Positions 1 to 64,000 of a stretch of DNA of 64,000 bases are shown here, one piece after another. Numbering within the stretch: position 1 is the stretch's first letter; every line of letters begins with the position of its first letter. The stretch comes from Chelydra serpentina (lineage: Eukaryota; Chordata; Testudines; Chelydridae), in NCBI GenBank assembly GCA_037349315.1, contig JBAIAC010000132.1:1488001-1552000 (forward strand), read 5' to 3'. The notes beneath the pieces are model-generated. The model searched no databases and had not been told where the DNA came from. It saw nothing but the letters and a program-made list of their open reading frames with translations. The position numbers and the translations under genes are program-made.

Positions 1-11
1 AAAAAAGAACT

Positions 12-263
12 TTGTTGGACTGACCGCCTGTGGGAAGCACGGACACGCCAAGGGCTAGAAGCAGGGAAGAAGAGACCAAAGGAGCCAGTGGAACCTCGGC
101 TTGAGTCAAGAGAAGACACAGGCATCAAGTGTCTTCTTAGAGCAGCCGACAGAATAGGCCTGTCATGAAAAGATGGGAAAACAGCCCCAGTAACAGATAA
201 AGACACTGCTTCAACACAGGCTAAGGAAAAATTACAGAGTGCTCCAAAGAACACTTCCTGAGA
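12..263. other. Unrecognised stretch between CR1 end and U1 3' box
   Basis: No gene or repeat recognised. Unit 1 has gaagcacggacac where most units have gaagcgcggacac and units 10 and 12 have gaagcgcagaaac. Confidence 0.5.
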
Positions 264-283
264 TCTTGCTTTCTTTCCACAAC
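264..283 (-). terminator. U1 3' box
   Basis: On the minus strand gttgtggaaagaaagcaaga starts 8 bases past the U1 3' end. It resembles the vertebrate 3' box GTTTN(0-3)AAARNNAGA that directs Integrator cleavage. It is conserved in all units seen. Confidence 0.6.
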
Positions 284-290
284 TGCGCAC

Positions 291-454
291 CAGGGGAAAG
301 CGCGAACGCAGTCCCCCACTACCACAAATTCTGCAGTTGAGTTTCCCACATTTGGGGAAATCACAGAGGTCAGCACACCCGCAGTGCAATGGATGAGCCT
401 CACGCTGGGAAAACCACCTTGCTGATCATGGTATCTCCCCTGCCAGGTAAGTAT
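291..454 (-). ncRNA. RNU1: U1 spliceosomal snRNA gene, unit 1
   Basis: Read on the minus strand from 454 to 291 this is a complete 164-nt U1 snRNA, the RNA of the U1 snRNP that base-pairs with 5' splice sites. It starts AUACUUACCUGGC, with the splice-site recognition sequence ACUUACCUG intact. It keeps stem-loop I (ACCAU...GUGGU), the stem-loop II U1A core AUUGCAC, stem-loop III, the Sm site AAUUUGUGG, the UUCG-capped stem-loop IV and the 3' end CUUUCCCCUG. Against human U1 as I remember it, 11 positions differ: 33, 34, 51, 53, 60, 73, 77, 88, 92, 117 and 124. C92U with G117A keeps a base pair in stem III. C33G/G34C alters the U1-70K loop, and G51C with C88U leaves a mismatch in lower stem II. 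PSE, DSE and 3' box are correctly placed and there is no TATA-like run near -25, so transcription by Pol II is expected. It could be a functional variant U1 or a homogenised pseudogene. Confidence 0.96.
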
Positions 455-497
455 AAGTCCCCACCGCTCAGCCGCCGCCTGCCCTCGCTCGCCCAAC

Positions 498-515
498 ACT
501 CTCAACCCACGGTGG
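498..515 (-). promoter_or_regulatory. U1 proximal sequence element (PSE)
   Basis: On the minus strand ccaccgtgggttgagagt lies 44-61 bases upstream of the U1 start, where SNAPc binds in vertebrate snRNA genes. It resembles the U1-type PSE core ACCGTG followed by a purine-rich end. The same sequence is found at the same offset in every unit that has a U1 gene. Confidence 0.75.
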
Positions 516-643
516 GGAACGCCCCAGCCAGCCTCCCTCGCCCCACCCCCACTACCACGAGCTGCCCCGTCCTGGCCCCTGGGCCACACTCTTCTCCACA
601 CCCAGCCCCAGGTGCCCGATTCCCGCCCTGCTCGGTAGCCTGC

Positions 644-654
644 TCCCACAATGC
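644..654 (+). promoter_or_regulatory. U1 distal element, SPH/ZNF143-like site
   Basis: tcccacaatgc agrees with the SPH core TCCCAGMATGC at ten of eleven positions and lies 190-200 bases upstream of U1. SPH next to an octamer is typical of snRNA enhancers. Confidence 0.5.
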
Positions 655-671
655 TCTGCTCGCACACATAA

Positions 672-679
672 CTGCAAAC
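672..679 (+). promoter_or_regulatory. U1 distal element, octamer-like site
   Basis: ctgcaaac matches six of eight bases of the Oct-1 octamer ATGCAAAT and sits 218-225 bases upstream of the U1 start, the usual DSE distance. The base context varies between units (taactgcaaac or tatctgcaaac). Confidence 0.55.
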
Positions 680-693
680 GTGCTCACGCGGCA

Positions 694-703
694 CCGCCCC
701 TCC
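694..703 (+). promoter_or_regulatory. GC box in the U1 distal region
   Basis: ccgcccctcc, a Sp1-type GC box, about 240 bases upstream of U1 and just outside the octamer-like site. Confidence 0.4.
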
Positions 704-711
704 GGAAACAG

Positions 712-741
712 AGAAAACATGGGGATTCGTTATTCTAATTC
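712..741 (+). repeat. 30-bp inverted repeat, left arm
   Basis: agaaaacatggggattcgtt plus the next ten bases is the exact reverse complement of 1453-1482. It lies between the U1 distal enhancer and the hAT element and ends on the first base of the hAT. Confidence 0.9.
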
Positions 742-1033
742 AGGGATAGGCAACCTATGGCACGCGTGCCAAAGGCGGCACGCGAGCTGATTTTCAGTGG
801 CGCTCACACCGGTCCAGGGGGCTCTGCATTTTAATTTAATTTTAAATGAAGCTTCTTAAACATTTTAAAAACCTTATTTACTTTATATACAACAATAGTT
901 TAGTTCTATATTTTAGACTTATAGAAAGAGAGCTTCTGAAAACGTTAAAATGCATTACTGGCACGCAAAACCTTAAATTAGACTGAATAAATGAAGACTC
1001 GGAACACCACTTCTGAAAGGTTGCCGACCCCTG
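741..1033. mobile_element. Short non-autonomous hAT-type DNA transposon
   Basis: The ends are imperfect terminal inverted repeats, cagggataggcaacct at the left and aggttgccgacccctg at the right. The AT-rich inside contains a run I remember from a hAT family common in turtles and crocodilians (taatttaattttaaatgaag, then acattttaaaaaccttattt). There is no transposase. The flanking 8-bp blocks ttctaatt and ctttagat agree at only four positions, so any target duplication has decayed. It starts about 287 bases upstream of U1, just outside the distal enhancer. Other copies: 5438-5730, 10126-10418, 14820-15112, 19518-19810, 24214-24506, 31191-31483, 35887-36179, 40584-40876, 45280-45572, 49977-50269, 54673-54965, 59372-59664. 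Unit 7 lacks it. Confidence 0.8.
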
Positions 1034-1041
1034 CTTTAGAT

Positions 1042-1452
1042 TGTATAATTTGGGTGTCTTTCTCTCGTGGTCTCCATGGAGAGGAATATTTAGGAATTTC
1101 TCCTTTTCGGGGGGGGGTTCATTTCAGTGAGGTTGTTACCTCTCCTTTAACAACAGCAACACCTTCTGGTTGGACTTTGCTGCTCAAACTTCTCTGGAAG
1201 GCTGAAGCTTAAATTGTAAAAAACCAGAGCTTTGGAAAATATGGTTTATATATGTAGAGCTTGATGTGTTAGCGAGATGTTTTTCCAGCAGGGGACTATT
1301 TTGTGATCTCTGTTCCTCTTGCTCTTTGGTTTCATAAGTTTTTGGTGTTAGTGATTAGCTGAGGCAAGGCTTGCGTAATGTCGAAAATAACTTTCAGATA
1401 TATTTTCAAGTTCCTTTGTTTTCCCCATGCATGATTGCATTTCCAAAGAAAG
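1042..1452. other. Unrecognised stretch between hAT and inverted-repeat arm
   Basis: Contains the poly-G tract. Otherwise AT-rich with no recognised RNA, promoter or transposon sequence. Short open frames here change with the G-run length, so they are not genes. Confidence 0.5.
1109..1117 (+). repeat. Poly-G tract of variable length
   Basis: After ccttttc the G run is 9 in units 1 and 3, 10 in units 2 and 14, 11 in units 5, 6, 8, 9, 10 and 12, and 13 in unit 4. In units 11 and 13 it is interrupted as three G, one A and seven G. Confidence 0.9.
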
Positions 1453-1482
1453 GAATTAGAATAACGAATCCCCATGTTTTCT
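1453..1482 (-). repeat. 30-bp inverted repeat, right arm
   Basis: Perfect match to the left arm in inverted orientation, 711 bases further on. Units 11 and 13 carry one mismatch (gaattaaaat). The duplication joint in the composite unit falls inside this arm. Confidence 0.9.
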
Positions 1483-1597
1483 GTGTTCATATTTAATGGT
1501 ACAAAAAGGGTATTCATACTGGCCTACCCAGTTATTCTAAATGACCACATGCAGCAGAGCTCATTAACAATGAATTCTTTCACCCCATGATTTCCCG

Positions 1598-1846
1598 TGA
1601 GAAGGCCACAGTGGCTCAGACTAATGGTCCATCTAGCCCAGTATTGTGTCTCTGACCTTGGCCACTACAAGAACGTCTGGTGGAGTGTACAGCACAGGAC
1701 CATTTGGAGTGATCCACCCTCATCTTCCACTCCTGCTCTCTGTGTAGTCAGAGATTTAGGGCTTGCCTCGAGCATGGGATTGCATCACTGACCAACTTCC
1801 CCAATGACTCTTGGTGGACCTAGTCTCTATTAACTTCTCTCATTCT
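1598..1846 (-). mobile_element. Inverted, diverged CR1 3' tail
   Basis: Read on the plus strand this is the reverse of the turtle CR1 end: ggctcagactaatggtcc and atctagcccagtat, later gtgatccaccct, ttggtggacctagtct and attaacttctct. These match, with many changes, the tail that ends in a reverse-complemented tctagttctttt. Present in all units at about +1597 from the unit start, and in unit 7 soon after the joint (27353 onward). Confidence 0.7.
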
Positions 1847-2293
1847 CGGTGGAAGCCAGGTATACTTGTAGCCCTCACAGCATACACGGCAAGGAGTTCT
1901 GCACGTTCATTTTGTCACCCCCACCACCTTTACTGTATTGGGCAAAAAGGGTAAATAACACTTTGCTCTTCACTTTAGCCACGTCATTCATGGTTTGACA
2001 GACCTCTCTCATCGTGGTTCTCAACCTTTTTTTCACCGGGGCCCCTAAAATGAAACAAACAGCCCTGCGGTTCCCCAACCGGAGGTGAAGCGGAGGGGGA
2101 GAAGCACACGGGGTCACCTGCCCCCCACGTTCTGCCCTCCATTTTGCCATGCTCCCTGAAATGCTAATGTAACAGGGCAGAGCAGTGTCGCCTTGGCTAG
2201 CTGCTGCCTGCTCGTGGAGTCAGTGGCTGTGAGGCAACCCTCACTGATGGCAGGGGGAGATTTCTCTTGTGCCGTGATACTTCCGTTTGTTCT

Positions 2294-2314
2294 TGTTGTT
2301 GTTGTTGTTGTTGG
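2294..2314 (+). repeat. (TTG)n microsatellite
   Basis: Seven TTG steps in units 1, 2, 13 and 14; six in units 3 to 12. Confidence 0.9.
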
Positions 2315-2316
2315 GC

Positions 2317-2369
2317 CCCTCCTCTCCCCTCCTCTTCCCTCCCCTTTCCTTCCCTTCCTCCACCCCCCG
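2317..2369 (+). repeat. Homopyrimidine tract
   Basis: About 50 bases of C and T with a single A near the end (cctcctctcccctcctcttc and onward to ccaccccccg). Mirror-like purine/pyrimidine strands of this length can form triplex DNA. Unit 2 lacks 10 bases here, and units 6 and 7 alone have ccttcctttcc. Confidence 0.75.
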
Positions 2370-2542
2370 CAAAGGAGGCAGGCAGGCTTGGTGGCCCGCT
2401 GAAGTGAGTCGGAGGTGGGTCAAGCCCAGGTTTCTTTTGGCAGACGCCCGGTTGAGAACCGGTGCCGTACCGTATCCCTCCCTAGTCATCTCTTGTCAAA
2501 ACTGACCAGTGTCTGTAGTCTCGCCTCATACTTTGGAAGTCT

Positions 2543-2632
2543 GCTATTTACCCCTTTCCACTGTGAAAACTGACTATTTATTGCCACCCTTTGTTTCCTA
2601 GCTGCTAACCGGTTACTGATCCATGAGAGGGC
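2543..2632 (-). mobile_element. CR1 reverse-transcriptase fragment, antisense
   Basis: The minus strand encodes ALSWISNRLAARKQR followed by VAINSQFSQWKGVNS, close to the CR1 reverse-transcriptase region LSWIxNWLKxRKQRVxINxQFSEW. It lies in an open frame (2486-2737) that is otherwise unrecognised. With the inverted tail at 1598-1846 it may belong to one antisense CR1 with an internal deletion and a later hAT insertion. Present in every unit. Confidence 0.75.
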
Positions 2633-2798
2633 TGAAGCCAGCTCGTGACTGTGAGCGCCAACCGCAGGGCAGACGGTTAAGAAGCAGGGCACAATCCGTC
2701 CAAGTTGGTTGTGTGTTCTAGATTCAGATTTCGCCACGTGTCGGATTATGGATTATGTGCCTTTGATGACTTTTTACACCAAATTTGCTATTTGGGGA

Positions 2799-2816
2799 TC
2801 ACTTAAGCATTATGTG
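2799..2816 (+). promoter_or_regulatory. Degenerate PSE-like site of U2-B
   Basis: tcacttaagcattatgtg sits 39-56 bases upstream of the inferred U2-B start. Only the TCAC end and the spacing fit a PSE, so this may be chance. Confidence 0.25.
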
Positions 2817-2854
2817 CAGACGACTGGAAATGTTTTTATTAAGCTGTATTTTAG

Positions 2855-3041
2855 ATCATTTTAACATTAGCTTGACTCAAAATTTTAAATCTGTTCTTAT
2901 GGCTTTAATAACTGATACTTCCTCTATCTGAGGACTATCTATTAAACTGATTTTTGGAATAGGGAGATGGAATGGCAGCTTTCTCCATCCACTGCACACA
3001 TCGCCGTTATTGCAGTACTGGACCTCCAGGAACGGTGGACC
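2855..3041 (+). pseudogene. U2 snRNA relic (U2-B), unit 1
   Basis: From about 2888 this follows U2 closely: AUCUGUUCUUAU, stem-loop IIa CCUCUAUCUGAGGAC, Sm site AUUUUUGG, GGGAGAUGGAAU, loop UUAUUGCAGUACU and CCUCCAGGAACGGUG. The first ~33 nt are only weakly recognisable (atcattttaac, agcttgactcaa), and where GUAGUA should be the sequence is TTTTAA, so it cannot pair with branch sites in the normal way. The 5' end at 2855 is therefore approximate. The 3' flank (tgtggggagaat...gaagagcagcgaaga) is homologous to the flank of U2-A, so the two arose by duplication including flanks. A weak PSE-like site is upstream and I see no octamer. Probably a pseudogene, although its 3' half is closer to canonical U2 than that of U2-A. 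Confidence 0.85.
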
Positions 3042-3090
3042 TACCTGTGGGGAGAATATCATGGCTGAAGAGCAGCGAAGAAACGTGGTG

Positions 3091-3485
3091 TTGTCTGTGT
3101 TAACATTTGGTTTGTACTAAGAGTACGGTTTTGAGTCATTTGTAACTCTTTGGTTAGTTATTAGGAAGATCTTATTAGTAGGCCTCTGAGTTGAAAGGCT
3201 GCTCTTGCAGATTTTACTTTGTCATTGCTCGTAGGTCAGTTAAACAGCTGCTTTCTTAGTCTATTCTGTGTCGGTTCTTAAACCGCTCTCCTTAGTACAC
3301 CGTCCGGAATTGATTGCACGGTTTGGATCATTCTTTCCCTCGTCTCCCCACAGAAAAGAAATTTTCCATCCCTTTCCCGTTGGGAAAACGCCACCGTTTT
3401 AACTTAGGAAACAGTCTCGGTAAATCTTTTGCCCAGACCAGGGATAGTTCACAGGAGCAGAAGAGGAGGAAGGTTGCGGCCCTTT
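3091..3485. other. Unrecognised stretch between U2-B and the U2-A upstream region
   Basis: No snRNA, transposon or coding sequence recognised. It holds the useful marker gatcttattag or gatcttagtag (near 3170), the second form in units 3, 5, 8, 10 and 13. Confidence 0.5.
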
Positions 3486-3570
3486 GAGTCAGATTCATAG
3501 CGTTTAAGGCCAGAAGGAGCCAGCCGATCACCTCAGAGGGACTGAGGTGCACCAATGCCCGAGGCCCTGC
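3486..3570 (+). mobile_element. Possible CR1-type 3' fragment
   Basis: gagtcagattcatagcg, aaggccagaaggagcc and gatcacctc resemble a common turtle repeat (GATTCATAGATTC...AAGGCCAGAAGGGACC...GATCATCTAG). It is short and diverged. It contains the base that separates units with cctcagaggg from those with cctcagcggg. Confidence 0.45.
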
Positions 3571-3736
3571 AATGGCAAGGAGTTGAGTTGATGCAATTGA
3601 CTGTATGTTTGAGATAGTTCTGTGGGAAGGAGCAGAAAAGAGCATTGGGGCTGCGGTCTAGCGCTTGCACAGGCTTTCGGTGCCCTGTTCTGCTGTAAGA
3701 GTGAACACTGAGAGATTGCTGGTCACAGGTGGGTTT

Positions 3737-3744
3737 GTGCAAAT
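3737..3744 (+). promoter_or_regulatory. U2-A distal element, octamer
   Basis: gtgcaaat matches the octamer ATGCAAAT at seven of eight bases, 202-209 bases upstream of U2-A. The duplication joint of the composite unit falls just 3' of this site (octamer 27211-27218, joint 27225-27227), so unit 6 keeps an octamer with no U2-A behind it. Confidence 0.65.
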
Positions 3745-3887
3745 TAGGAGTGTCCAGGGAACTGCCTTTGAACAGAATTGTGTGTTAAGGGTTCTTGCTT
3801 TGAATTCTTCCACTGGAGTCATTTCGGGGAAGTGATCCTCACTTAGCGTTACCCAGTGATGGTGTTTGTTACGTGTCTCGGAGCTCG

Positions 3888-3905
3888 TCACGGTGAGGTA
3901 GAAAG
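3888..3905 (+). promoter_or_regulatory. U2-A proximal sequence element (PSE)
   Basis: tcacggtgaggtagaaag lies 41-58 bases upstream of the U2-A start. It fits the PSE pattern TCACNNTNA...AAAG. It is unchanged in the copies I checked. Confidence 0.75.
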
Positions 3906-3945
3906 CGTTGGGGGCAGGGGTGTGCGTGCGTCACAGAGTCTCCGC

Positions 3946-4134
3946 ATCGCTTCTCGGCTCCTCGGAGCTCAGATCAAGTGTAGTATCTGTTCTTATCAGT
4001 TTAATATCTGGTAGGTCCTTTAGTTGAGGACTGTATATTAAATGGATTTTTGAAACAGGGGGATGGAAGAGGAGCTTGCTCGCTCCACCCTATGCATCAA
4101 CCTGGTATTGCAGTGTCTCCAGGACCGGTGCGTC
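3946..4134 (+). ncRNA. RNU2: U2 snRNA gene (U2-A), unit 1
   Basis: A near full-length U2 snRNA (about 189 nt), the RNA of the U2 snRNP that pairs with intron branch sites and with U6. It starts AUCGCUUCUCGGC. After stem-loop I it keeps a 35-nt stretch identical to human U2 as I remember it, including branch-site sequence GUAGUA. Stem IIa pairs GUCCU/AGGAC, the Sm site is AUUUUUGA (canonical AUUUUUGG) and stem IV pairs CCUGG/CCAGG. Stem-loop I is two bases longer and rebuilt as GCUC-CUCG-GAGC. The loop IV site for U2B'' and A' reads AUUGCAGUGUC instead of AUUGCAGUACC, and loop IIa is UUAGUUG instead of CUAUCCG. PSE, octamer and 3' box are in place. Intact stems and promoter favour a functional variant; the loop changes leave a pseudogene possible. 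Confidence 0.92.
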
Positions 4135-4156
4135 TCCTTTTGGGGAGAATGTTCTG

Positions 4157-4171
4157 GTTAGAAAAGCAGGA
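4157..4171 (+). terminator. U2-A 3' box
   Basis: gttagaaaagcagga begins 23 bases past the U2-A 3' end and resembles GTTTN(0-3)AAARNNAGA. Units 3, 9 and 11 carry single-base variants inside or beside it. Confidence 0.55.
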
Positions 4172-4325
4172 AGAGTTTTACGGTGATGATGCTTCTTTAA
4201 AGCAGATTTTTTTCAAGTAGTTGAAAAATCTGAGTTCTTTAGCTAGCGCTTTGGCTTCTTTATGATAAAATACCGTTACGATGTCTTGGGAGCATTTTGT
4301 GAGTCTATAACAGTGAGGTTCTTTC

Positions 4326-4708
4326 TTGCCCCATCTCAGAAAAAGATAGATTAGAATTGGAAAGACTCAGAAAAAAGGGGCAACAAAACGATGAGGGGAT
4401 ATGGGACTGCGTCTGTATAAGAAGAGATTAATCAGATTGGGACTTTTCAGCTGGGAAAAGGGACGACTAAAGGGGGATACGATGGAGGTCTATAAAATCA
4501 TGACTGGTGTGGAGAAAGTAAATAAAGAAGTGTTATTGACTCCTTCTCATAACACAAGGTCTAGGGGTCACCAAATGAAATTAATAGGTAGCAGGTTTAA
4601 AACAAACAAACGGAAGTGTTTCTTCCCACAACACACAGTCAACCTGTGGAACTCTTTGCCAGAGGATGTTCTGTAGGCCAAGACTATAACAGGGTTCAAA
4701 AAAGAACT
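4326..4708 (+). mobile_element. CR1 LINE fragment, end of ORF2 and start of 3' tail
   Basis: The plus strand encodes a stretch typical of the C-terminus of CR1 ORF2: [39 protein letters not shown] and [14 protein letters not shown] (open frame 4401-4676). Past the stop the DNA runs as gccaagactataacagggtt and caaaaaagaact, as I recall for turtle CR1, then leaves the consensus after agaact. The element is a 5'-truncated, inactive piece lying between U2-A and the next U1. Other copies: 9014-9396, 13708-14090, 18406-18788, 23102-23484, 30079-30461, 34775-35157, 39471-39854, 44168-44550, 48864-49247, 53561-53943, 58260-58642, 62950-63332. Units 9 and 11 have a one-base insertion (cacaagaacacag) that shifts the frame near its end. 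Confidence 0.88.
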
Positions 4709-4987
4709 TTGTTGGACTGACCGCCTGTGGGAAGCGCGGACACGCCAAGGGCTAGAAGCAGGGAAGAAGAGACCAAAGGAGCCAGTGGAACCTCGGCTTG
4801 AGTCAAGAGAAGACACAGGCATCAAGTGTCTTCTTAGAGCAGCAGACAGAATAGGACTGTCATGAAAAGATGGGAAAACAGCCCCAGTAACAGATAAAGA
4901 CACTGCTTCAACACAGGCTAAGGAAAAATTACAGAGTGCTCCAAAGAACACTTCCTGAGATCTTGCTTTCTTTCCACAACTGCGCAC

Positions 4988-5151
4988 CAGGGGAAAGCGC
5001 GAACGCAGTCCCCCCCTACCACAAATTCTGCAGTTGAGTTTCCCACATTTGGGGAAATCACAGAGGTCAGCACACCCGCAGTGCAATGGATGAACCTCAC
5101 GCTGGGAAAACCACCTTGCTGATCATGGTATCTCCCCTGCCAGGTAAGTAT
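4988..5151 (-). ncRNA. RNU1: U1 snRNA gene, unit 2 (C58U, U137G allele)
   Basis: Full length. It differs from the unit-1 gene by C58U in stem II (a C-G pair becomes a wobble) and U137G just before stem-loop IV, giving seven G in a row. The same pair of changes is found only in unit 14. Confidence 0.96.
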
Positions 5152-7542
5152 AAGTCCCCACCGCTCAGCCGCCGCCTGCCCTCGCTCGCCCAACACTCTC
5201 AACCCACGGTGGGGAACGCCCCAGCCAGCCTCCCTCGCCCCACCCCCACTACCACGAGCTGCCCCGTCCTGGCCCCTGGGCCACACTCTTCTCCACACCC
5301 AGCCCCAGGTGCCAGATTCCCGCCCTGCTCGGTAGCCTGCTCCCACAATGCTCTGCTTGCACACATAACTGCAAACGTGCTCACGCGGCACCGCCCCTCC
5401 GGAAACAGAGAAAACATGGGGATTCGTTATTCTAATTCAGGGATAGGCAACCTATGGCACGCGTGCCAAAGGCGGCACGCGAGCTGATTTTCAGTGGCGC
5501 TCACACCGGTCCAGGGGGCTCTGCATTTTAATTTAATTTTAAATGAAGCTTCTTAAACATTTTAAAAACCTTATTTACTTTATATACAACAATAGTTTAG
5601 TTCTATATTTTAGACTTATAGAAAGAGAGCTTCTGAAAACGTTAAAATGCATTACTGGCACGCAAAACCTTAAATTAGACTGAATAAATGAAGACTCGGA
5701 ACACCACTTCTGAAAGGTTGCCGACCCCTGCTTTAGATTGTATAATTTGGGTGTCTTTCTCTCGTGGTCTCCATGGAGAGGAATATTTAGGAATTTCTCC
5801 TTTTCGGGGGGGGGGTTCATTTCAGTGAGGTTGTTACCTCTCCTTTAACAACAGCAACACCTTCTGGTTGGACTTTGCTGCTCAAACTTCTCTGGAAGGC
5901 TGAAGCTTAAATTGTAAAAAACCAGAGCTTTGGAAAATATGGTTTATATATGTAGAGCTTGATGTGTTAGCGAGATGTTTTTCCAGCAGGGGACTATTTT
6001 GTGATCTCTGTTCCTCTTGCTCTTTGGTTTCATAAGTTTTTGGTGTTAGTGATTAGCTGAGGCAAGGCTTGCGTAATGTCGAAAATAACTTTCAGATATA
6101 TTTTCAAGTTCCTTTGTTTTCCCCATGCATGATTGCATTTCCAAAGAAAGGAATTAGAATAACGAATCCCCATGTTTTCTGTGTTCATATTTAATGGTAC
6201 AAAAAGGGTATTCATACTGGCCTACCCAGTTATTCTAAATGACCACATGCAGCAGAGCTCATTAACAATGAATTCTTTCACCCCATGATTTCCCGTGAGA
6301 AGGCCACAGTGGCTCAGACTAATGGTCCATCTAGCCCAGTATTGTGTCTCTGACCTTGGCCACTACAAGAACGTCTGGTGGAGTGTACAGCACAGGACCA
6401 TTTGGAGTGATCCACCCTCATCTTCCACTCCTGCTCTCTGTGTAGTCAGAGATTTAGGGCTTGCCTCGAGCATGGGATTGCATCACTGACCAACTTCCCC
6501 AATGACTCTTGGTGGACCTAGTCTCTATTAACTTCTCTCATTCTCGGTGGAAGCCAGGTATACTTGTAGCCCTCACAGCATACACGGCAAGGAGTTCTGC
6601 ACGTTCATTTTGTCACCCCCACCACCTTTACTGTATTGGGCGAAAAGGGTAAATAACACTTTGCTCTTCACTTTAGCCACGTCATTCATGGTTTGACAGA
6701 CCTCTCTCATCGTGGTTCTCAACCTTTCTTTCACCGGGGCCCCTAAAATGAAACAAACAGCCCTGCGGTTCCCCAACCGGAGGTGAAGCGGAGGGGGAGA
6801 AGCACACGGGGTCACCTGCCCCCCACGTTCTGCCCTTCATTTTGCCATGCTCCCTGAAATGCTAATGTAACAGGGCAGAGCAGTGTCGCCTTGGCTAGCT
6901 GCTGCCTGCTCGTGGAGTCAGTGGCTGTGAGGCAACCCTCACTGATGGCAGGGGGAGATTTCTCTTGTGCCGTGATACTTCCGTTTGTTCTTGTTGTTGT
7001 TGTTGTTGTTGGGCCCCTCCTCTCCCCTCCCCTTTCCTTCCCTTCCTCCACCCCCCGCAAAGGAGGCAGGCAGGCTTGGTGGCCCGCTGAAGTGAGTCGG
7101 AGGTGGGTCAAGCCCAGGTTTCTTTTGGCAGACGCCCGGTTGAGAACCGGTGCCGTACCGTATCCCTCCCTAGTCATCTCTTGTCAAAACTGACCAGTGT
7201 CTGTAGTCTCGCCTCATACTTTGGAAGTCTGCTATTTACCCCTTTCCACTGTGAAAACTGACTATTTATTGCCACCCTTTGTTTCCTAGCTGCTAACCGG
7301 TTACTGATCCATGAGAGGGCTGAAGCCAGCTCGTGACTGTGAGCGCCAACCGCAGGGCAGACGGTTAAGAAGCAGGGCACAATCCGTCCAAGTTGGTTGT
7401 GTGTTCTAGATTCAGATTTCGCCACGTGTCGGATTATGGATTATGTGCCTTTGATGACTTTTTACACCAAATTTGCTATTTGGGGATCACTTAAGCATTA
7501 TGTGCAGACGACTGGAAATGTTTTTATTAAGCTGTATTTTAG

Positions 7543-7729
7543 ATCATTTTAACATGAGCTTGACTCAAAATTTTAAATCTGTTCTTATGGCTTTAATAAC
7601 TGATACTTCCTCTATCTGAGGACTATCTATTAAACTGATTTTTGGAATAGGGAGATGGAATGGCAGCTTTCTCCATCCACTGCACACATCGCCGTTATTG
7701 CAGTACTGGACCTCCAGGAACGGTGGACC
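7543..7729 (+). pseudogene. U2-B relic, unit 2
   Basis: As in unit 1, with aacatgagct in the degenerate 5' part instead of aacattagct. Confidence 0.85.
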
Positions 7730-8633
7730 TCCCTGTGGGGAGAATATCATGGCTGAAGAGCAGCGAAGAAACGTGGTGTTGTCTGTGTTAACATTTGGTT
7801 TGTACTAAGAGTACGGTTTTGAGTCATTTGTAACTCTTTGGTTAGTTATTAGGAAGATCTTATTAGTAGGCCTCTGAGTTGAAAGGCTGCTCTTGCAGAT
7901 TTTACTTTGTCATTGCTCGTAGGTCAGTTAAACAGCTGCTTTCTTAGTCTATTCTGTGTCGGTTCTTAAACCGCTCTCCTTAGTACACCGTCCGGAATTG
8001 ATTGCACGGTTTGGATCATTCTTTCCCTCGTCTCCCCACAGAAAAGAAATTTTCCATCCCTTTCCCGTTGGGAAAACGCCACCGTTTTAACTTAGGAAAC
8101 AGTCTCGGTAAATCTTTTGCCCAGACCAGGGATAGTTCACAGGAGCAGAAGAGGAGGAAGGTTGCGGCCCTTTGAGTCAGATTCATAGCGTTTAAGGCCA
8201 GAAGGAGCCAGCCGATCACCTCAGAGGGACTGAGGTGCACCAATGCCCGAGGCCCTGCAATGGCAAGGAGTTGAGTTGATGCAATTGACTGTATGTTTGA
8301 GATAGTTCTGTGGGAAGGAGCAGAAAAGAGCATTGGGGCTGCGGTCTAGCGCTTGCACAGGCTTTCGGTGCCCTGTTCTGCTGTAAGAGTGAACACTGAG
8401 AGATTGCTGGTCACAGGTGGGTTTGTGCAAATTAGGAGTGTCCAGGGAACTGCCTTTGAACAGAATTGTGTGTTAAGGGTTCTTGCTTTGAATTCTTCCA
8501 CTGGAGTCATTTCGGGGAAGTGATCCTCACTTAGCGTTACCCAGTGATGGTGTTTGTTACGTGTCTCGGAGCTCGTCACGGTGAGGTAGAAAGCGTTGGG
8601 GGCAGGGGTGTGTGTGCGTCACAGAGTCTCCGC

Positions 8634-8822
8634 ATCGCTTCTCGGCTCCTCGGAGCTCAGATCAAGTGTAGTATCTGTTCTTATCAGTTTAATATCTGGT
8701 AGGTCCTTTAGTTGAGGACTGTATATTAAATGGATTTTTGAAACAGGGGGATGGAAGAGGAGCTTGCTCGCTCCACCCTATGCATCAACCTGGTATTGCA
8801 GTGTCTCCAGGACCGGTGCGTC
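8634..8822 (+). ncRNA. RNU2: U2 snRNA gene (U2-A), unit 2
   Basis: Same RNA sequence class as unit 1 (starts AUCGC, stem III gctcgctcc). A g-to-a change lies just upstream of the gene in gtgtgtgcgtc. Confidence 0.92.
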
Positions 8823-9675
8823 TCCTTTTGGGGAGAATGTTCTGGTTAGAAAAGCAGGAAGAGTTTTACGGTGATGATGCTTCTTTAAAGCAGATTTTTT
8901 TCAAGTAGTTGAAAAATCTGAGTTCTTTAGCTAGCGCTTTGGCTTCTTTATGATAAAATACCGTTACGATGTCTTGGGAGCATTTTGTGAGTCTATAACA
9001 GTGAGGTTCTTTCTTGCCCCATCTCAGAAAAAGATAGATTAGAATTGGAAAGACTCAGAAAAAAGGGGCAACAAAACGATGAGGGGATATGGGACTGCGT
9101 CTGTATAAGAAGAGATTAATCAGATTGGGACTTTTCAGCTGGGAAAAGGGACGACTAAAGGGGGATACGATGGAGGTCTATAAAATCATGACTGGTGTGG
9201 AGAAAGTAAATAAAGAAGTGTTATTGACTCCTTCTCATAACACAAGGTCTAGGGGTCACCAAATGAAATTAATAGGTAGCAGGTTTAAAACAAACAAACG
9301 GAAGTGTTTCTTCCCACAACACACAGTCAACCTGTGGAACTCTTTGCCAGAGGATGTTCTGTAGGCCAAGACTATAACAGGGTTCAAAAAAGAACTTTGT
9401 TGGACTGACCGCCTGTGGGAAGCGCGGACACGCCAAGGGCTAGAAGCAGGGAAGAAGAGACCAAAGGAGCCAGTGGAACCTCGGCTTGAGTCAAGAGAAG
9501 ACACAGGCATCAAGTGTCTTCTTAGAGCAGCCGACAGAATAGGCCTGTCATGAAAAGATGGGAAAACAGCCCCAGTAACAGATAAAGACACTGCTTCAAC
9601 ACAGGCTAAGGAAAAATTACAGAGTGCTCCAAAGAACACTTCCTGAGATCTTGCTTTCTTTCCACAACTGCGCAC

Positions 9676-9839
9676 CAGGGGAAAGCGCGAACGCAGTCCC
9701 CCACTACCACAAATTCTGCAGTTGAGTTTCCCACATTTGGGGAAATCACAGAGGTCAGCACACCCGCAGTGCAATGGATGAGCCTCACGCTGGGAAAACC
9801 ACCTTGCTGATCATGGTATCTCCCCTGCCAGGTAAGTAT
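9676..9839 (-). ncRNA. RNU1: U1 snRNA gene, unit 3
   Basis: Full length and identical to the unit-1 gene by eye. The promoter has cccacccctcag just upstream, where most units have cccaccgctcag. Confidence 0.96.
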
Positions 9840-12236
9840 AAGTCCCCACCCCTCAGCCGCCGCCTGCCCTCGCTCGCCCAACACTCTCAACCCACGGTGG
9901 GGAACGCCCCAGCCAGCCTCCCTCGCCCCACCCCCACTACCACGAGCTGCCCCGTCCTGGCCCCTGGACCACACTCTTCTCCACACCCAGCCCCAGGTGC
10001 CAGATTCCCGCCCTGCTCGGTAGCCTGCTCCCACAATGCTCTGCTCGCACACATAACTGCAAACGTGCTCACGCGGCACCGCCCCTCCGGAAACAGAGAA
10101 AACATGGGGATTCGTTATTCTAATTCAGGGATAGGCAACCTATGGCACGCGTGCCAAAGGCGGCACGCGAGCTGATTTTCAGTGGCGCTCACACCGGTCC
10201 AGGGGGCTCTGCATTTTAATTTAATTTTAAATGAAGCTTCTTAAACATTTTAAAAACCTTATTTACTTTATATACAACAATAGTTTAGTTCTATATTTTA
10301 GACTTATAGAAAGAGAGCTTCTGAAAACGTTAAAATGCATTACTGGCACGCAAAACCTTAAATTAGACTGAATAAATGAAGACTCGGAACACCACTTCTG
10401 AAAGGTTGCCGACCCCTGCTTTAGATTGTATAATTTGGGTGTCTTTCTCTCGTGGTCTCCATGGAGAGGAATATTTAGGAATTTCTCCTTTTCGGGGGGG
10501 GGTTCATTTCAGTGAGGTTGTTACCTCTCCTTTAACAACAGCAACACCTTCTGGTTGGACTTTGCTGCTCGAACTTCTCTGGAAGGCTGAAGCTTAAATT
10601 GTAAAAAACCAGAGCTTTGGAAAATATGGTTTATATATGTAGAGCTTGATGTGTTAGCGAGATGTTTTTCCAGCAGGGGACTATTTTGTGATCTCTGTTC
10701 CTCTTGCTCTTTGGTTTCATAAGTTTTTGGTGTTAGTGATTAGCTGAGGCAAGGCTTGCGTAATGTCGAAAATAACTTTCAGATATATTTTCAAGTTCCT
10801 TTGTTTTCCCCATGCATGATTGCATTTCCAAAGAAAGGAATTAGAATAACGAATCCCCATGTTTTCTGTGTTCATATTTAATGGTACAAAAAGGGTATTC
10901 ATACTGGCCTACCCAGTTATTCTAAATGACCACATGCAGCAGAGCTCATTAACAATGAATTCTTTCACCCCATGATTTCCCGTGAGAAGGCCACAGTGGC
11001 TCAGACTAATGGTCCATCTAGCCCAGTATTGTGTCTCTGACCTTGGCCACTACAAGAACGTCTGGTGGAGTGTACAGCACAGGACCATTTGGAGTGATCC
11101 ACCCTCATCTTCCACTCCTGCTCTCTGTGTAGTCAGAGATTTAGGGCTTGCCTCGAGCATGGGATTGCATCACTGACCAACTTCCCCAATGACTCTTGGT
11201 GGACCTAGTCTCTATTAACTTCTCTCATTCTCGGTGGAAGCCAGGTATACTTGTAGCCCTCACAGCATACACGGCAAGGAGTTCTGCACGTTCATTTTGT
11301 CACCCCCACCACCTTTACTGTATTGGGCAAAAAGGGTAAATAACACTTTGCTCTTCACTTTAGCCACGTCATTCATGGTTTGACAGACCTCTCTCATCGT
11401 GGTTCTCAACCTTTTTTTCACCGGGGCCCCTAAAATGAAACAAACAGCCCTGCGGTTCCCCAACCGGAGGTGAAGCGGAGGGGGAGAAGCACACGGGGTC
11501 ACCTGCCCCCCACGTTCTGCCCTCCATTTTGCCATGCTCCCTGAAATGCTAATGTAACAGGGCAGAGCAGTGTCGCCTTGGCTAGCTGCTGCCTGCTCGT
11601 GGAGTCAGTGGCTGTGAGGCAACCCTCACTGATGGCAGGGGGAGATTTCTCTTGTGCCGTGATACTTCCGTTTGTTCTTGTTGTTGTTGTTGTTGGGCCC
11701 CTCCTCTCCCCTCCTCTTCCCTCCCCTTTCCTTCCCTTCCTCCACCCCCCGCAAAGGAGGCAGGCAGGCTTGGTGGCCCGCTGAAGTGAGTCGGAGGTGG
11801 GTCAAGCCCAGGTTTCTTTTGGCAGACGCCCGGTTGAGAACCGGTGCCGTACCGTATCCCTCCCTAGTCATCTCTTGTCAAAACTGACCAGTGTCTGTAG
11901 TCTCGCCTCATACTTTGGAAGTCTGCTATTTACCCCTTTCCACTGTGAAAACTGACTATTTATTGCCACCCTTTGTTTCCTAGCTGCTAACCGGTTACTG
12001 ATCCATGAGAGGGCTGAAGCCAGCTCGTGACTGTGAGCGCCAACCGCAGGGCAGACGGTTAAGAAGCAGGGCACAATCCGTCCAAGTTGGTTGTGTGTTC
12101 TAGATTCAGATTTCGCCACGTGTCGGATTATGGATTATGTGCCTTTGATGACTTTTTACACCAAATTTGCTATTTGGGGATCACTTAAGCATTATGTGCA
12201 GACGACTGGAAATGTTTTTATTAAGCTGTATTTTAG

Positions 12237-23763: not shown

Positions 23764-23927
23764 CAGGGGAAAGCGCGAACGCAGTCCCCCACTACCACAA
23801 ATTCTGCAGTTGAGTTTCCCACATTTGGGGAAATCACAGAGGTCAGCACGCCCGCAGTGCAATGGATGAGCCTCACGCTGGGAAAACCACCTTGCTGATC
23901 ATGGTATCTCCCCTGCCAGGTAAGTAT
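23764..23927 (-). ncRNA. RNU1: U1 snRNA gene, unit 6 (U78C allele)
   Basis: Full length with U78C in stem II (plus strand cagcacgcccgc). The same change occurs in unit 9. This is the only U1 gene of the composite 6,977-bp unit. Confidence 0.96.
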
Positions 23928-26326: not shown

Positions 26327-26513
26327 ATCATTTTAACATTAGCTTGACTCAAAATTTTAAATCTGTTCTTATGGCTTTAATAACTGATACTTCCTCTATC
26401 TGAGGACTATCTATTAAACTGATTTTTGGAATAGGGAGATGGAATGGCAGCTTTCTCCATCCACTGCACACATCGCCGTTATTGCAGTACTGGACCTCCA
26501 GGAACGGTGGACC
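26327..26513 (+). pseudogene. U2-B relic, unit 6 (first of two in the composite)
   Basis: Majority sequence. It lies inside the 2,281-bp duplicated segment, so the composite unit has two U2-B copies. Confidence 0.85.
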
Positions 26514-43976: not shown

Positions 43977-44829
43977 TCCTTTTGGGGAGAATGTTCTGGT
44001 TAGAAAAGCAGGAAGAGTTTTACGGTGATGATGCTTCTTTAAAGCAGATTTTTTTCAAGTAGTTGAAAAATCTGAGTTCTTTAGCTAGCGCTTTGGCTTC
44101 TTTATGATAAAATACCGTTACGATGTCTTGGGAGCATTTTGTGAGTCTATAACAGTGAGGTTCTTTCTTGCCCCATCTCAGAAAAAGATAGATTAGAATT
44201 GGAAAGACTCAGAAAAAAGGGGCAACAAAACGATGAGGGGATATGGGACTGCGTCTGTATAAGAAGAGATTAATCAGATTGGGACTTTTCAGCTGGGAAA
44301 AGGGACGACTAAAGGGGGATACGATGGAGGTCTATAAAATCATGACTGGTGTGGAGAAAGTAAATAAAGAAGTGTTATTGACTCCTTCTCATAACACAAG
44401 GTCTAGGGGTCACCAAATGAAATTAATAGGTAGCAGGTTTAAAACAAACAAACGGAAGTGTTTCTTCCCACAACACACAGTCAACCTGTGGAACTCTTTG
44501 CCACAGGATGTTCTGTAGGCCAAGACTATAACAGGGTTCAAAAAAGAACTTTGTTGGACTGACCGCCTGTGGGAAGCGCGGACACGCCAAGGGCTAGAAG
44601 CAGGGAAGAAGAGACCAAAGGAGCCAGTGGAACCTCGGCTTGAGTCAAGAGAAGACACAGGCATCAAGTGTCTTCTTAGAGCAGCCGACAGAATAGGCCT
44701 GTCATGAAAAGATGGGAAAACAGCCCCAGTAACAGATAAAGACACTGCTTCAACACAGGCTAAGGAAAAATTACAGAGTGCTCCAAAGAACACTTCCTGA
44801 GATCTTGCTTTCTTTCCACAACTGCGCAC

Positions 44830-47579: not shown

Positions 47580-48483
47580 TCCCTGTGGGGAGAATATCAT
47601 GGCTGAAGAGCAGCGAAGAAACGTGGTGTTGTCTGTGTTAACATTTGGTTTGTACTAAGAGTACGGTTTTGAGTCATTTGTAACTCTTTGGTTAGTTATT
47701 AGGAAGATCTTATTAGTAGGCCTCTGAGTTGAAAGGCTGCTCTTGCAGATTTTACTTTGTCATTGCTCGTAGGTCAGTTAAACAGCTGCTTTCTTAGTCT
47801 ATTCTGTGTCGGTTCTTAAACCGCTCTCCTTAGTACACCGTCCGGAATTGATTGCACGGTTTGGATCATTCTTTCCCTCGTCTCCCCACAGAAAAGAAAT
47901 TTTCCATCCCTTTCCCGTTGGGAAAACGCCACCGTTTTAACTTAGGAAACAGTCTCGGTAAATCTTTTGCCCAGACCAGGGATAGTTCACAGGAGCAGAA
48001 GAGGAGGAAGGTTGCGGCCCTTTGAGTCAGATTCATAGCGTTTAAGGCCAGAAGGAGCCAGCCGATCACCTCAGAGGGACTGAGGTGCACCAATGCCCGA
48101 GGCCCTGCAATGGCAAGGAGTTGAGTTGATGCAATTGACTGTATGTTTGAGATAGTTCTGTGGGAAGGAGCAGAAAAGAGCATTGGGGCTGCGGTCTAGC
48201 GCTTGCACAGGCTTTCGGTGCCCTGTTCTGCTGTAAGAGTGAACACTGAGAGATTGCTGGTCACAGGTGGGTTTGTGCAAATTAGGAGTGTCCAGGGAAC
48301 TGCCTTTGAACAGAATTGTGTGTTAAGGGTTCTTGCTTTGAATTCTTCCACTGGAGTCATTTCGGGGAAGTGATCCTCACTTAGCGTTACCCAGTGATGG
48401 TGTTTGTTACGTGTCTCGGAGCTCGTCACGGTGAGGTAGAAAGCGTTGGGGGCAGGGGTGTGCGTGCGTCACAGAGTCTCCGC

Positions 48484-48672: not shown

Positions 48673-49526
48673 TCCTTTTGGGGAGAATGTTCTGGTTAGA
48701 AAAGCAGAAAGAGTTTTACGGTGATGATGCTTCTTTAAAGCAGATTTTTTTCAAGTAGTTGAAAAATCTGAGTTCTTTAGCTAGCGCTTTGGCTTCTTTA
48801 TGATAAAATACCGTTACGATGTCTTGGGAGCATTTTGTGAGTCTATAACAGTGAGGTTCTTTCTTGCCCCATCTCAGAAAAAGATAGATTAGAATTGGAA
48901 AGACTCAGAAAAAAGGGGCAACAAAACGATGAGGGGATATGGGACTGCGTCTGTATAAGAAGAGATTAATCAGATTGGGACTTTTCAGCTGGGAAAAGGG
49001 ACGACTAAAGGGGGATACGATGGAGGTCTATAAAATCATGACTGGTGTGGAGAAAGTAAATAAAGAAGTGTTATTGACTCCTTCTCATAACACAAGGTCT
49101 AGGGGTCACCAAATGAAATTAATAGGTAGCAGGTTTAAAACAAACAAACGGAAGTGTTTCTTCCCACAAGAACACAGTCAACCTGTGGAACTCTTTGCCA
49201 CAGGATGTTCTGTAGGCCAAGACTATAACAGGGTTCAAAAAAGAACTTTGTTGGACTGACCGCCTGTGGGAAGCGCAGAAACGCCAAGGGCTAGAAGCAG
49301 GGAAGAAGAGACCAAAGGAGCCAGTGGAACCTCGGCTTGAGTCAAGAGAAGACACAGGCATCAAGTGTCTTCTTAGAGCAGCCGACAGAATAGGCCTGTC
49401 ATGAAAAGATGGGAAAACAGCCCCAGTAACAGATAAAGACACTGCTTCAACACAGGCTAAGGAAAAATTACAGAGTGCTCCAAAGAACACTTCCTGAGAT
49501 CTTGCTTTCTTTCCACAACTGCGCAC

Positions 49527-61478: not shown

Positions 61479-61665
61479 ATCATTTTAACATTAGCTTGAC
61501 TCAAAATTTTAAATCTGTTCTTATGGCTTTAATAACTGATACTTCCTCTATCTGAGGACTATCTATTAAACTGATTTTTGGAATAGGGAGATGGAATGGC
61601 AGCTTTCTCCATCCACTGCACACATCGCCGTTATTGCAGTACTGGACCTCCAGGAACGGTGGACC
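61479..61665 (+). pseudogene. U2-B relic, unit 14
   Basis: Majority sequence. Confidence 0.85.
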
Positions 61666-62569
61666 TCCCTGTGGGGAGAATATCATGGCTGAAGAGCAGC
61701 GAAGAAACGTGGTGTTGTCTGTGTTAACATTTGGTTTGTACTAAGAGTACGGTTTTGAGTCATTTGTAACTCTTTGGTTAGTTATTAGGAAGATCTTATT
61801 AGTAGGCCTCTGAGTTGAAAGGCTGCTCTTGCAGATTTTACTTTGTCATTGCTCGTAGGTCAGTTAAACAGCTGCTTTCTTAGTCTATTCTGTGTCGGTT
61901 CTTAAACCGCTCTCCTTAGTACACCGTCCGGAATTGATTGCACGGTTTGGATCATTCTTTCCCTCGTCTCCCCACAGAAAAGAAATTTTCCATCCCTTTC
62001 CCGTTGGGAAAACGCCACCGTTTTAACTTAGGAAACAGTCTCGGTAAATCTTTTGCCCAGACCAGGGATAGTTCACAGGAGCAGAAGAGGAGGAAGGTTG
62101 CGGCCCTTTGAGTCAGATTCATAGCGTTTAAGGCCAGAAGGAGCCAGCCGATCACCTCAGAGGGACTGAGGTGCACCAATGCCCGAGGCCCTGCAATGGC
62201 AAGGAGTTGAGTTGATGCAATTGACTGTATGTTTGAGATAGTTCTGTGGGAAGGAGCAGAAAAGAGCATTGGGGCTGCGGTCTAGCGCTTGCACAGGCTT
62301 TCGGTGCCCTGTTCTGCTGTAAGAGTGAACACTGAGAGATTGCTGGTCACAGGTGGGTTTGTGCAAATTAGGAGTGTCCAGGGAACTGCCTTTGAACAGA
62401 ATTGTGTGTTAAGGGTTCTTGCTTTGAATTCTTCCACTGGAGTCATTTCGGGGAAGTGATCCTCACTTAGCGTTACCCAGTGATGGTGTTTGTTACGTGT
62501 CTCGGAGCTCGTCACGGTGAGGTAGAAAGCGTTGGGGGCAGGGGTGTGCGTGCGTCACAGAGTCTCCGC

Positions 62570-62758
62570 ATCGCTTCTCGGCTCCTCGGAGCTCAGATCA
62601 AGTGTAGTATCTGTTCTTATCAGTTTAATATCTGGTAGGTCCTTTAGTTGAGGACTGTATATTAAATGGATTTTTGAAACAGGGGGATGGAAGAGGAGCT
62701 TGCTCGCTCCACCCTATGCATCAACCTGGTATTGCAGTGTCTCCAGGACCGGTGCGTC
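62570..62758 (+). ncRNA. RNU2: U2 snRNA gene (U2-A), unit 14
   Basis: AUCGC start, gctcgctcc, same class as units 1 and 2. Confidence 0.92.
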
Positions 62759-63321
62759 TCCTTTTGGGGAGAATGTTCTGGTTAGAAAAGCAGGAAGAGT
62801 TTTACGGTGATGATGCTTCTTTAAAGCAGATTTTTTTCAAGTAGTTGAAAAATCTGAGTTCTTTAGCTAGCGCTTTGGCTTCTTTATGATAAAATACCGT
62901 TACGATGTCTTGGGAGCATTTTGTGAGTCTATAACAGTGAGGTTCTTTCTTGCCCCATCTCAGAAAAAGATAGATTAGAATTGGAAAGACTCAGAAAAAA
63001 GGGGCAACAAAACGATGAGGGGATATGGGACTGCGTCTGTATAAGAAGAGATTAATCAGATTGGGACTTTTCAGCTGGGAAAAGGGACGACTAAAGGGGG
63101 ATACGATGGAGGTCTATAAAATCATGACTGGTGTGGAGAAAGTAAATAAAGAAGTGTTATTGACTCCTTCTCATAACACAAGGTCTAGGGGTCACCAAAT
63201 GAAATTAATAGGTAGCAGGTTTAAAACAAACAAACGGAAGTGTTTCTTCCCACAACACACAGTCAACCTGTGGAACTCTTTGCCAGAGGATGTTCTGTAG
63301 GCCAAGACTATAACAGGGTTC

Positions 63322-64000
63322 AAAAAAGAACTTTGTTGGACTGACCGCCTGTGGGAAGCGCGGACACGCCAAGGGCTAGAAGCAGGGAAGAAGAGACCAA
63401 AGGAGCCAGTGGAACCTCGGCTTGAGTCAAGAGAAGACACAGGCATCAAGTGTCTTCTTAGAGCAGCCGACAGAATAGGCCTGTCATGAAAAGATGGGAA
63501 AACAGCCCCAGTAACAGATAAAGACACTGCTTCAACACAGGCTAAGGAAAAATTACAGAGTGCTCCAAAGAACACTTCCTGAGATCTTGCTTTCTTTCCA
63601 CAACTGCGCACCAGGGGAAAGCACGAACGCAGTCCCCCACTACCACAAATTCTGCAGTTGAGTTTCCCACATTTGGGGAAATCACAGAGGTCAGCACACC
63701 CGCAGTGCAATGGATGAGCCTCACGCTGGGAAAACCACCTTGCTGATCATGGTATCTCCCCTGCCAGGTAAGTATAAGTCCCCACCCCTCAGCCGCCGCC
63801 TGCCCTCGCTCGCCCAACACTCTCAACCCACGGTGGGGAACGCCCCAGCCAGCCTCCCTCGCCCCACCCCCACTACCACGAGCTGCCCCGTCCTGGCCCC
63901 TGGACCACACTCTTCTCCACACCCAGCCCCAGGTGCCAGATTCCCGCCCTGCTCGGTAGCCTGCTCCCACAATGCTCTGCTCGCACACATAACTGCAAAC
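63322..64000. repeat. Array unit 15 (cut off by the window edge, first 679 bp)
   Basis: It contains the whole U1 gene and most of its promoter. It shares cccacccctcag and cctggaccac with unit 3, continuing the unit 2/unit 14 pairing. The array continues beyond the window. Confidence 0.97.
63612..63775 (-). ncRNA. RNU1: U1 snRNA gene, unit 15 (C153U allele)
   Basis: Full length with C153U. Its upstream region carries the unit-3 markers, so the C153U allele occurs on two different promoter backgrounds, which suggests gene conversion. Confidence 0.95.

Follow-up and report, generated by a model that had tools for sequence, protein, structure and literature searches.

To our knowledge, the small nuclear RNA (snRNA) gene arrays usually described in vertebrates hold a single snRNA in its canonical form. 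The human RNU2 array is a homogenised snRNA unit of kilobase scale that contains U2 only. Here we analyse a turtle array, sampled in the 64,000-nucleotide stretch C132:1488001-1552000 (hereafter, the window), which is like the human array in its homogenised kilobase-scale unit and differs from it in that the unit holds U1 and U2, both of them non-canonical. The human variant U1 (vU1) genes are not known to belong to a homogenised U1/U2 array, nor, in a search that was not exhaustive, is a shared U1/U2 unit known for the snRNA isoforms of Xenopus, sea urchin and mouse.

The initial annotation of this DNA had mentioned linked snRNA genes in some fish and invertebrates but no precedent for this arrangement. 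Linkage of U1 and U2 as such does have precedents: it is reported for Soleidae and Drosophila (PMC3464664), and in the hake Merluccius merluccius the biggest U1 cluster is also the single U2 cluster, with an amplicon that includes both genes (PMC4696792). Hake shares with the turtle the linkage of U1 and U2 in an amplified cluster, and its spacer also contains a degenerate U2 piece; the hake amplicons measure about 1.1-1.2 kb, and U5 is part of one of them, U6 and U2 pieces of another (PMC4696792), whereas the turtle unit is of 4.7 kb, has no U5 match, is repeated about 200 times, carries variant genes and coexists with separate canonical sets. Among the titles and abstract openings listed from the open-access literature, with subscription journals mostly outside, no paper described a repeat unit shared by U1 and U2 in turtles or other reptiles. 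In Xenopus, U1 and U2 lie on different chromosomes (PMC10361878), and in Podocnemis turtles U2 is co-located with 5S (PMC7197720). Minor U1 and U2 isoforms used mostly early in development are reported for Xenopus, sea urchin and mouse (PMC4291461, whose reference list names the primate RNU2 array); like the genes of the array, they are variant snRNA genes beside a major form. Human vU1 genes are, like array U1, diverged U1 paralogues, and some vU1 particles are without U1-70K (PMC5159530).

We propose, with a probability of roughly 0.52, that in this large tandem array a pair of variant U1 and variant U2 genes evolves in concert, is transcribed and would yield variant RNAs in bulk, possibly, by analogy with the developmental isoforms, as a supply for early development or the oocyte.

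The window was searched with the Rfam models of U1 (RF00003) and U2 (RF00004) at gathering thresholds of 69.5 and 46 bits, respectively. There are 14 U1 matches, all on the minus strand (158.3-161.5 bits, model positions 1-166 of 166), and 13 full-length U2 matches, all on the plus strand (148.1-151.1 bits, model positions 1-192 of 192); 14 weak U2 matches, again all on the plus strand, score 55.5-61.3 bits. The tandem unit of about 4.69 kb with U1 and U2 on opposite strands, as initially annotated, is thereby confirmed, and both genes are full-length matches above the gathering scores. U1 had been correctly described as complete; U2 had been described as near-complete, which is not the case, and the degenerate U2 had been missed. 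In the normal unit U1 is read leftward and U2 rightward, about 3.5 kb apart, and the next U1 follows about 0.85 kb past U2 and faces it. Consecutive U1 genes are 4688-4699 bp apart in 12 of the 13 intervals and 6977 bp apart in the other. Pairwise, the 13 units of the window differ by 1-22 substitutions, gaps excluded, that is, they are at least 99.5% identical; with the presence of the array on several scaffolds, this bears out the view that it is homogenised as one unit, with concerted evolution of both genes. The U1 genes of the window, all on the minus strand, are the following (RF00003 scores, sequence changes in parentheses):

291-454, minus strand: array U1 copy 1, 161.5 bits
4988-5151, minus strand: array U1 copy 2 (C58T, T137G), 159.5 bits
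9676-9839, minus strand: array U1 copy 3, 161.5 bits
14370-14533, minus strand: array U1 copy 4, 161.5 bits
19068-19231, minus strand: array U1 copy 5, 161.5 bits
23764-23927, minus strand: array U1 copy 6 (T78C), 158.3 bits
30741-30904, minus strand: array U1 copy 7, 161.5 bits
35437-35600, minus strand: array U1 copy 8 (T78C), 158.3 bits
40134-40297, minus strand: array U1 copy 9 (C153T), 158.4 bits
44830-44993, minus strand: array U1 copy 10, the reference copy, 161.5 bits
49527-49690, minus strand: array U1 copy 11 (C153T), 158.4 bits
54223-54386, minus strand: array U1 copy 12, 161.5 bits
58922-59085, minus strand: array U1 copy 13 (C58T, T137G), 159.5 bits
63612-63775, minus strand: array U1 copy 14 (C153T), 158.4 bits

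The full-length U2 genes are (RF00004 scores):

3946-4138, plus strand: array U2 copy 1, 149.8 bits
8634-8826, plus strand: array U2 copy 2, 149.8 bits
13328-13520, plus strand: array U2 copy 3, 151.1 bits
18026-18218, plus strand: array U2 copy 4, 148.1 bits
22722-22914, plus strand: array U2 copy 5, 148.1 bits
29699-29891, plus strand: array U2 copy 6, 148.1 bits
34395-34587, plus strand: array U2 copy 7, 148.1 bits
39091-39283, plus strand: array U2 copy 8, 148.2 bits
43788-43980, plus strand: array U2 copy 9, 150.1 bits
48484-48676, plus strand: array U2 copy 10, 150.1 bits
53181-53373, plus strand: array U2 copy 11, 150.1 bits
57880-58072, plus strand: array U2 copy 12, 150.1 bits
62570-62762, plus strand: array U2 copy 13, 149.8 bits

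In each full unit the degenerate U2 (psiU2) is situated upstream of the intact U2, at a distance of about 1.09 kb. Decay affects the 5′ part of psiU2, but a comparison made in a single unit (47393 against 48484) aligns its 3′ flank with that of U2; it is therefore taken as a DNA-level duplicate, and an origin by retroposition was set aside on the same ground. The relics and the irregular unit are located as follows:

2855-3045, plus strand: psiU2, first of 14 (55.5-61.3 bits for all 14)
Starts at 7543, 12237, 16935, 21631, 26327, 28608, 33304, 38000, 42697, 47393, 52090, 56789 and 61479, plus strand: psiU2 2-14, same score range
23764-30740, no strand assigned: irregular unit of 6977 bp, in which positions 1-3464 of the unit are joined to positions 1181-4697 (against the reference unit), the first part without U2

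Judged by their sequences, the genes of the array are diverged variants, and the standard U1 and U2 of this genome are not among them. Covariance scores were obtained genome-wide for the best candidates only (42 U1 and 46 U2 places). They reach 172.7-174.1 bits at 28 of the 42 U1 places, located in other clusters, and 193.9-197.7 bits at the best six of the 46 U2 places, all on C40; the array genes lie about 11-50 bits below these canonical genes. Sixteen of the 21 canonical U1 copies fetched and read are identical, and an exact canonical-loop U1 core occurs at 41 places in the whole genome. Compared with the human sequences, canonical U1 differs at 6 of 164 positions and C40 U2 in 9 alignment columns, the 3′ tail included. 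An earlier reading held that the turtle draws most of its U1 and U2 from the array, with the dosages of both tied together. Exact array U1 cores do exceed canonical-loop cores by about 5:1 (213 against 41), but near-human U1 and U2 are encoded at the other loci just mentioned and the array genes score lower, and we consider this reading very unlikely. Since the array genes are diverged variants, the dosage argument would be limited to the variant RNAs at most.

In array U1 the 5′ splice-site sequence and the Sm site are intact (AUACUUACCUG and AAUUUGUGG in the consensus) and invariant in the 14 window copies. Nine positions differ from the canonical consensus (33, 34, 51, 88, 92, 107, 117, 124 and 157), and array U1 shares the base of human U1 at 107 and 157. 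The pair 92-117 has changed jointly from C-G to U-A, which keeps the pairing. C33G and G34C are found in 14 of 14 window copies; loop I thus reads GATCAGCAAGG and is not the canonical one, which was GATCACGAAGG in 20 and GATCATGAAGG in 1 of the 21 canonical copies read. Minimum free energy folds of U1 missed the known U1 structure and were left unused.

Array U2 likewise keeps its branch-site and Sm sequences (GTGTAGTATC and ATTTTTG in the consensus, invariant in 13 of 13 copies). It differs from the canonical U2 of C40 in 28 alignment columns, 2 of them gaps. When the copy at 8634 was compared with C40 on the Rfam structure (45 pairs), 2 compensatory changes, 3 one-sided changes that keep the pair and 2 broken pairs were counted. 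From the U2 class of C54 and C239 array U2 differs in 24-25 columns. A further class, on C56 and C108 (L058-L063), scores 176.6-180.8 bits for six copies. As array, C40, C56/C108 and C54/C239 U2 are all distinct, this genome has at least four U2 classes. The two members of the C56/C108 class that were tested have 5 compensatory changes each and no broken pairs relative to canonical U2; this class is a clear-cut candidate for a variant U2 with function.

The array extends well beyond the window, with at least 20 kb more array DNA on either side. Exact array U1 cores begin at 1,451,557 on C132; pieces sampled at 1,456,001 and 1,800,001 are array and those at 1,448,001 and 1,815,001 are non-array. 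If unbroken, the array of this scaffold would comprise about 350 kb, or about 75 units. Exact matches over the whole 2.28-Gb assembly number 213 for the core of array U1 (63 plus, 150 minus) and 173 for that of array U2 (129 plus, 44 minus), while reversed-core controls gave 0 matches for either. Isolated array U1 cores are found on C10 and C42 among the matches listed. Array DNA aligned from C132, C109, C211 and C245 is 98.6-99.8% identical to the reference unit (alignments of at least 700 bases); C92 and C123 contain both array cores, and C152 and C314 have U2 scores of array class.

The orientation of the array switches within three scaffolds, C132 (at about 1456-1460 kb), C92 and C109. Such changes, together with scaffold lengths such as 2,015,000, which hint at scaffolding, and two sampled scaffold ends that read N, are what could be expected if the assembler had collapsed or multiplied copies. 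We hold an assembly construct to be extremely improbable, given that units differ by substitutions and indels, that the unit recurs on several scaffolds, that a low-copy relative with a common layout exists on C54, and that the C132 junction, as read, has a 98-bp displaced piece of its own and arms 99.2% alike, with no perfect fold-back.

The relative on C54 is a 3.6-kb stretch with U1 on the minus and U2 on the plus strand, in the layout of the unit. Four colinear stretches align with the unit at 74-83%, besides one short inverted match, and no match to the psiU2 relic was found in the 3.6 kb. Its U1, with the canonical loop, is 97.0% identical to human U1 against 93.9% to array U1. On C140, canonical U1 recurs at a spacing of about 4.3 kb; there, U1 lies beside a psiU2-like stretch that is partly alignable to positions 1052-3313 of the unit, and no U2 was present within the pieces fetched. 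As the C54 pair and the C140 layout resemble the unit, the amplification probably came after both the divergent U1-U2 pair and the association of U1 with the relic had arisen.

Variation between copies was analysed in 27 units, of which C132 contributed 20 and three other scaffolds 7 (28 were extracted and the 6977-bp unit was dropped). Variable sites amount to 12/164 in U1, 21/193 in U2, 98/3649 in the spacer and 6/191 in psiU2, and the 250-bp 5′ flank of U2 has 6. CpG decay as the only cause was rejected, as the excess in the gene bodies persists at non-CpG sites (U1 9/154, U2 13/181, psiU2 5/185, DNA more than 300 bp from both genes 46/2980). In a shift test on the 22 non-CpG gene sites, none of 1800 placements clear of the gene zones reached 22. 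The pattern is weaker in the 13 units of the window alone (U1 4/164, U2 5/193, psiU2 4/191, and 41 substitution sites outside these three). The polymorphism:divergence ratio in U2 is 21:25 for the gene against 10:72 for the flank (p = 6e-5); because array units are related to one another, this p value and the one for U1 given below are only descriptive.

Active snRNA genes are reported to be hypermutable, up to tenfold, a property that may help to separate functional genes from pseudogenes (PMC13083260). In view of that report, the variation peak on U1 and U2, absent from the relic, speaks for transcription in the germ line of the two genes but not of psiU2.

The proximal sequence element (PSE), the distal sequence element (DSE)/octamer and the 3′ box were located by aligning the array with snRNA genes from elsewhere in the genome. 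Sequences similar to these three elements are present roughly where they had been initially annotated, with the U1 PSE and DSE at the usual distances and the U2 promoter being less conserved than that of U1. In a representative unit they are:

45035-45057, minus strand: U1 PSE zone (-64 to -42), 0 array-specific changes, 1 singleton among 27 units
45176-45215, minus strand: U1 DSE zone (-222 to -183), 0 array-specific changes, 2 variable sites among 27 units
44803-44822, minus strand: U1 3′-box-like sequence, from the U1 3′-flank alignment and the motif consensus
48425-48444, plus strand: U2 PSE-like sequence at -59, aligned with the C40, C54, C239 and C108 U2 promoters
48275-48282, plus strand: U2 octamer-like DSE (GTGCAAAT) at -209; the aligned position in C54 and C239 reads ATGCAAAT
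48695-48712, plus strand: U2 3′-box-like sequence, from alignment and the motif consensus

Changes in the U1 flank were polarised by comparing the array with C140 U1, with C24, C394 and C210 as outgroups. In the 5′ flank 29 of 219 aligned bases changed on the array side, none of them in -64..-42 or in -222..-183, against 9 of 164 in the gene (Fisher p = 0.015). For U2, the unpolarised comparison of the array with C54 gives 25/193 differences in the gene and 72/332 in the flanks (p = 0.014), a contrast that, being unpolarised, partly reflects constraint on the C54 side. Among the 27 units the U2 PSE-like element has no variable site and the octamer has one. At the level of DNA, these comparisons show both gene bodies to be under long-term constraint and the U1 promoter elements to be conserved.

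The array could also be a decaying snRNA-derived satellite, in which unequal exchange multiplied a unit with chance copies of U1 and U2 that no longer gives transcripts. The variant loop I of U1, broken pairs in both RNAs, psiU2 within the unit, high gene variation and an altered U2 promoter would all fit this view, and the canonical genes elsewhere could do all the work. Nevertheless, loss of constraint alone would level the genes with the spacer and not lift them above it; genes that vary more than the spacer therefore call for more than relaxed selection, and the peak is seen on U1 and U2 while the relic does not share it. A silent satellite also fits poorly with unchanged U1 PSE and DSE zones and with two gene bodies that diverge more slowly than their flanks. 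We regard it as the main alternative, tentative and to be taken seriously but not favoured.

For the transcribed array that we prefer, the course of events would be as follows. As the sequences show, an old divergent U1-U2 pair, colinear with the unit, survives at low copy on C54 with a canonical-loop U1, and a related pair with variant U1 and variant U2 has been amplified to about 170-210 copies, with canonical genes persisting elsewhere. SNAPc and RNA polymerase II would then transcribe both variant genes through their PSE, DSE and 3′ box, in germ-line or early embryonic cells at least, which would give variant U1 and U2 RNAs in bulk. The array might thereby act as an early-development or oocyte supply, by analogy with the U1/U2 isoforms that are regulated during development in frog, sea urchin and mouse.

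Several observations weigh against this proposal. Variation is raised in the U1 5′ flank too (14/250 variable sites, 9/214 non-CpG), and 109 of 4697 circular shifts reach 22 when overlapping ones are counted. Eight of the 33 variable sites in the genes (U1 2/12, U2 6/21) carry the base of a paralogue as a minority allele, so that some of them may come from gene conversion or retained ancestry. The polymorphism:divergence contrast of U1 is marginal (12:9 for the gene against 13:29 for the flank, p = 0.06), and the high variation of the genes is a mark of weak short-term purifying selection. The U2 PSE-like 20-mer differs from that of C54 at 4 of 20 bases and the octamer at 1 of 8. As to the RNAs, the pair 51-88 of array U1 is now a C/U mismatch, and 2 of the 45 pairs are broken in the array U2 copy, in comparison with none in the two tested U2 genes of the C56/C108 class. 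The oocyte role is put forward by analogy only.

The swap in loop I belongs to the same set of objections. In the human U1 structure, loop 3 of U1-70K embraces exactly the two bases 33-34 (PMC4383343), which are those changed by C33G/G34C in the array, and a loss of U1-70K binding by array U1 is possible. The stronger idea that the swap abolishes function is weakened by a human loop I mutant that retains part of its 70K binding (PMC4822034) and by the U1 gene of a contaminant contig (L002), whose loop I, GAUCAGCAAG, is the same as that of turtle array U1; because of this shared loop, the swap need not be fatal.

A bolder version, which we think unlikely and which leans on analogy, is that the roughly 200 units encode a second matched U1/U2 pair. 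Its swapped 70K loop and re-sculpted U2 would be co-activated in the germ line or early embryo so as to change, or to mass-supply, the first step of splicing, and concerted evolution would keep both partners matched.

Other observations concern the genome and the remainder of the unit. The view that the host is a turtle was supported by the RAG1 protein of the same genome, which matches a Terrapene cluster at 97%, Emydura at 94% and Carettochelys at 93% and suggests a hard-shelled cryptodire. The canonical U2 genes of C40 (L052-L057) are spaced by about 20.36 kb and about 5.54 kb in turn, a pattern that resembles a higher-order repeat of two genes. On C24 a U5 gene (L009:149-264, 79.4 bits) is placed upstream of a canonical U1, at a distance of about 1.2 kb, a case of U1-U5 linkage. 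The best-scoring U1 copies, L004 (C136) and L005 (C616), are alike at 174.1 bits; L004 may be a retrocopy, as its 5′ flank is unlike those of the other aligned U1 genes. Within the unit, a search for other RNAs (window 4900-9900, E up to 5) returned only U1, U2, psiU2 and two matches below threshold, SNORD126 (24.3 against 55 bits) and mir-9209 (19 against 90 bits), which were taken as chance. The spacer segments 5434-5730 and 9040-9400, present in each unit, resemble ancient interspersed repeats on visual inspection, putatively of hAT-like and CR1-like type. Tandem Repeats Finder, whose longest detectable period is 500, listed nothing in the window, and a plasmid search with one spacer stretch of the unit gave no match.

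Viral contigs scanned with the U1 and U2 cores gave no match either. A U2-core scan of the genome contig collection returned three stretches on two eukaryotic contaminant contigs, which serve as outside examples only. Both have U1 and U2 on opposite strands, 0.2 and 1.3 kb apart. One (L001), filed as a bacterial metagenome-assembled genome (MAG), has U2 on the minus and U1 on the plus strand, a divergent pair 200 bp apart, with 5S and histone-like open reading frames, and represents animal contamination. The other (L002/L003), filed as a Trichormus MAG, has U2 on the plus and U1 on the minus strand about 1.3 kb apart and is the one with loop I GAUCAGCAAG.

The array thus places two snRNAs that act successively at the start of splicing in one homogenised unit, both as variants, with the canonical genes apart. 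It provides a natural test of the bulk use of variant snRNAs and of the paired evolution of U1 and U2 variants. It is also an unusual case in that variation between copies is highest in the genes and not in the spacers, which may serve as a genomic sign of transcription. For the turtle, the array may point to a second source that supplies unusual splicing RNAs in bulk.

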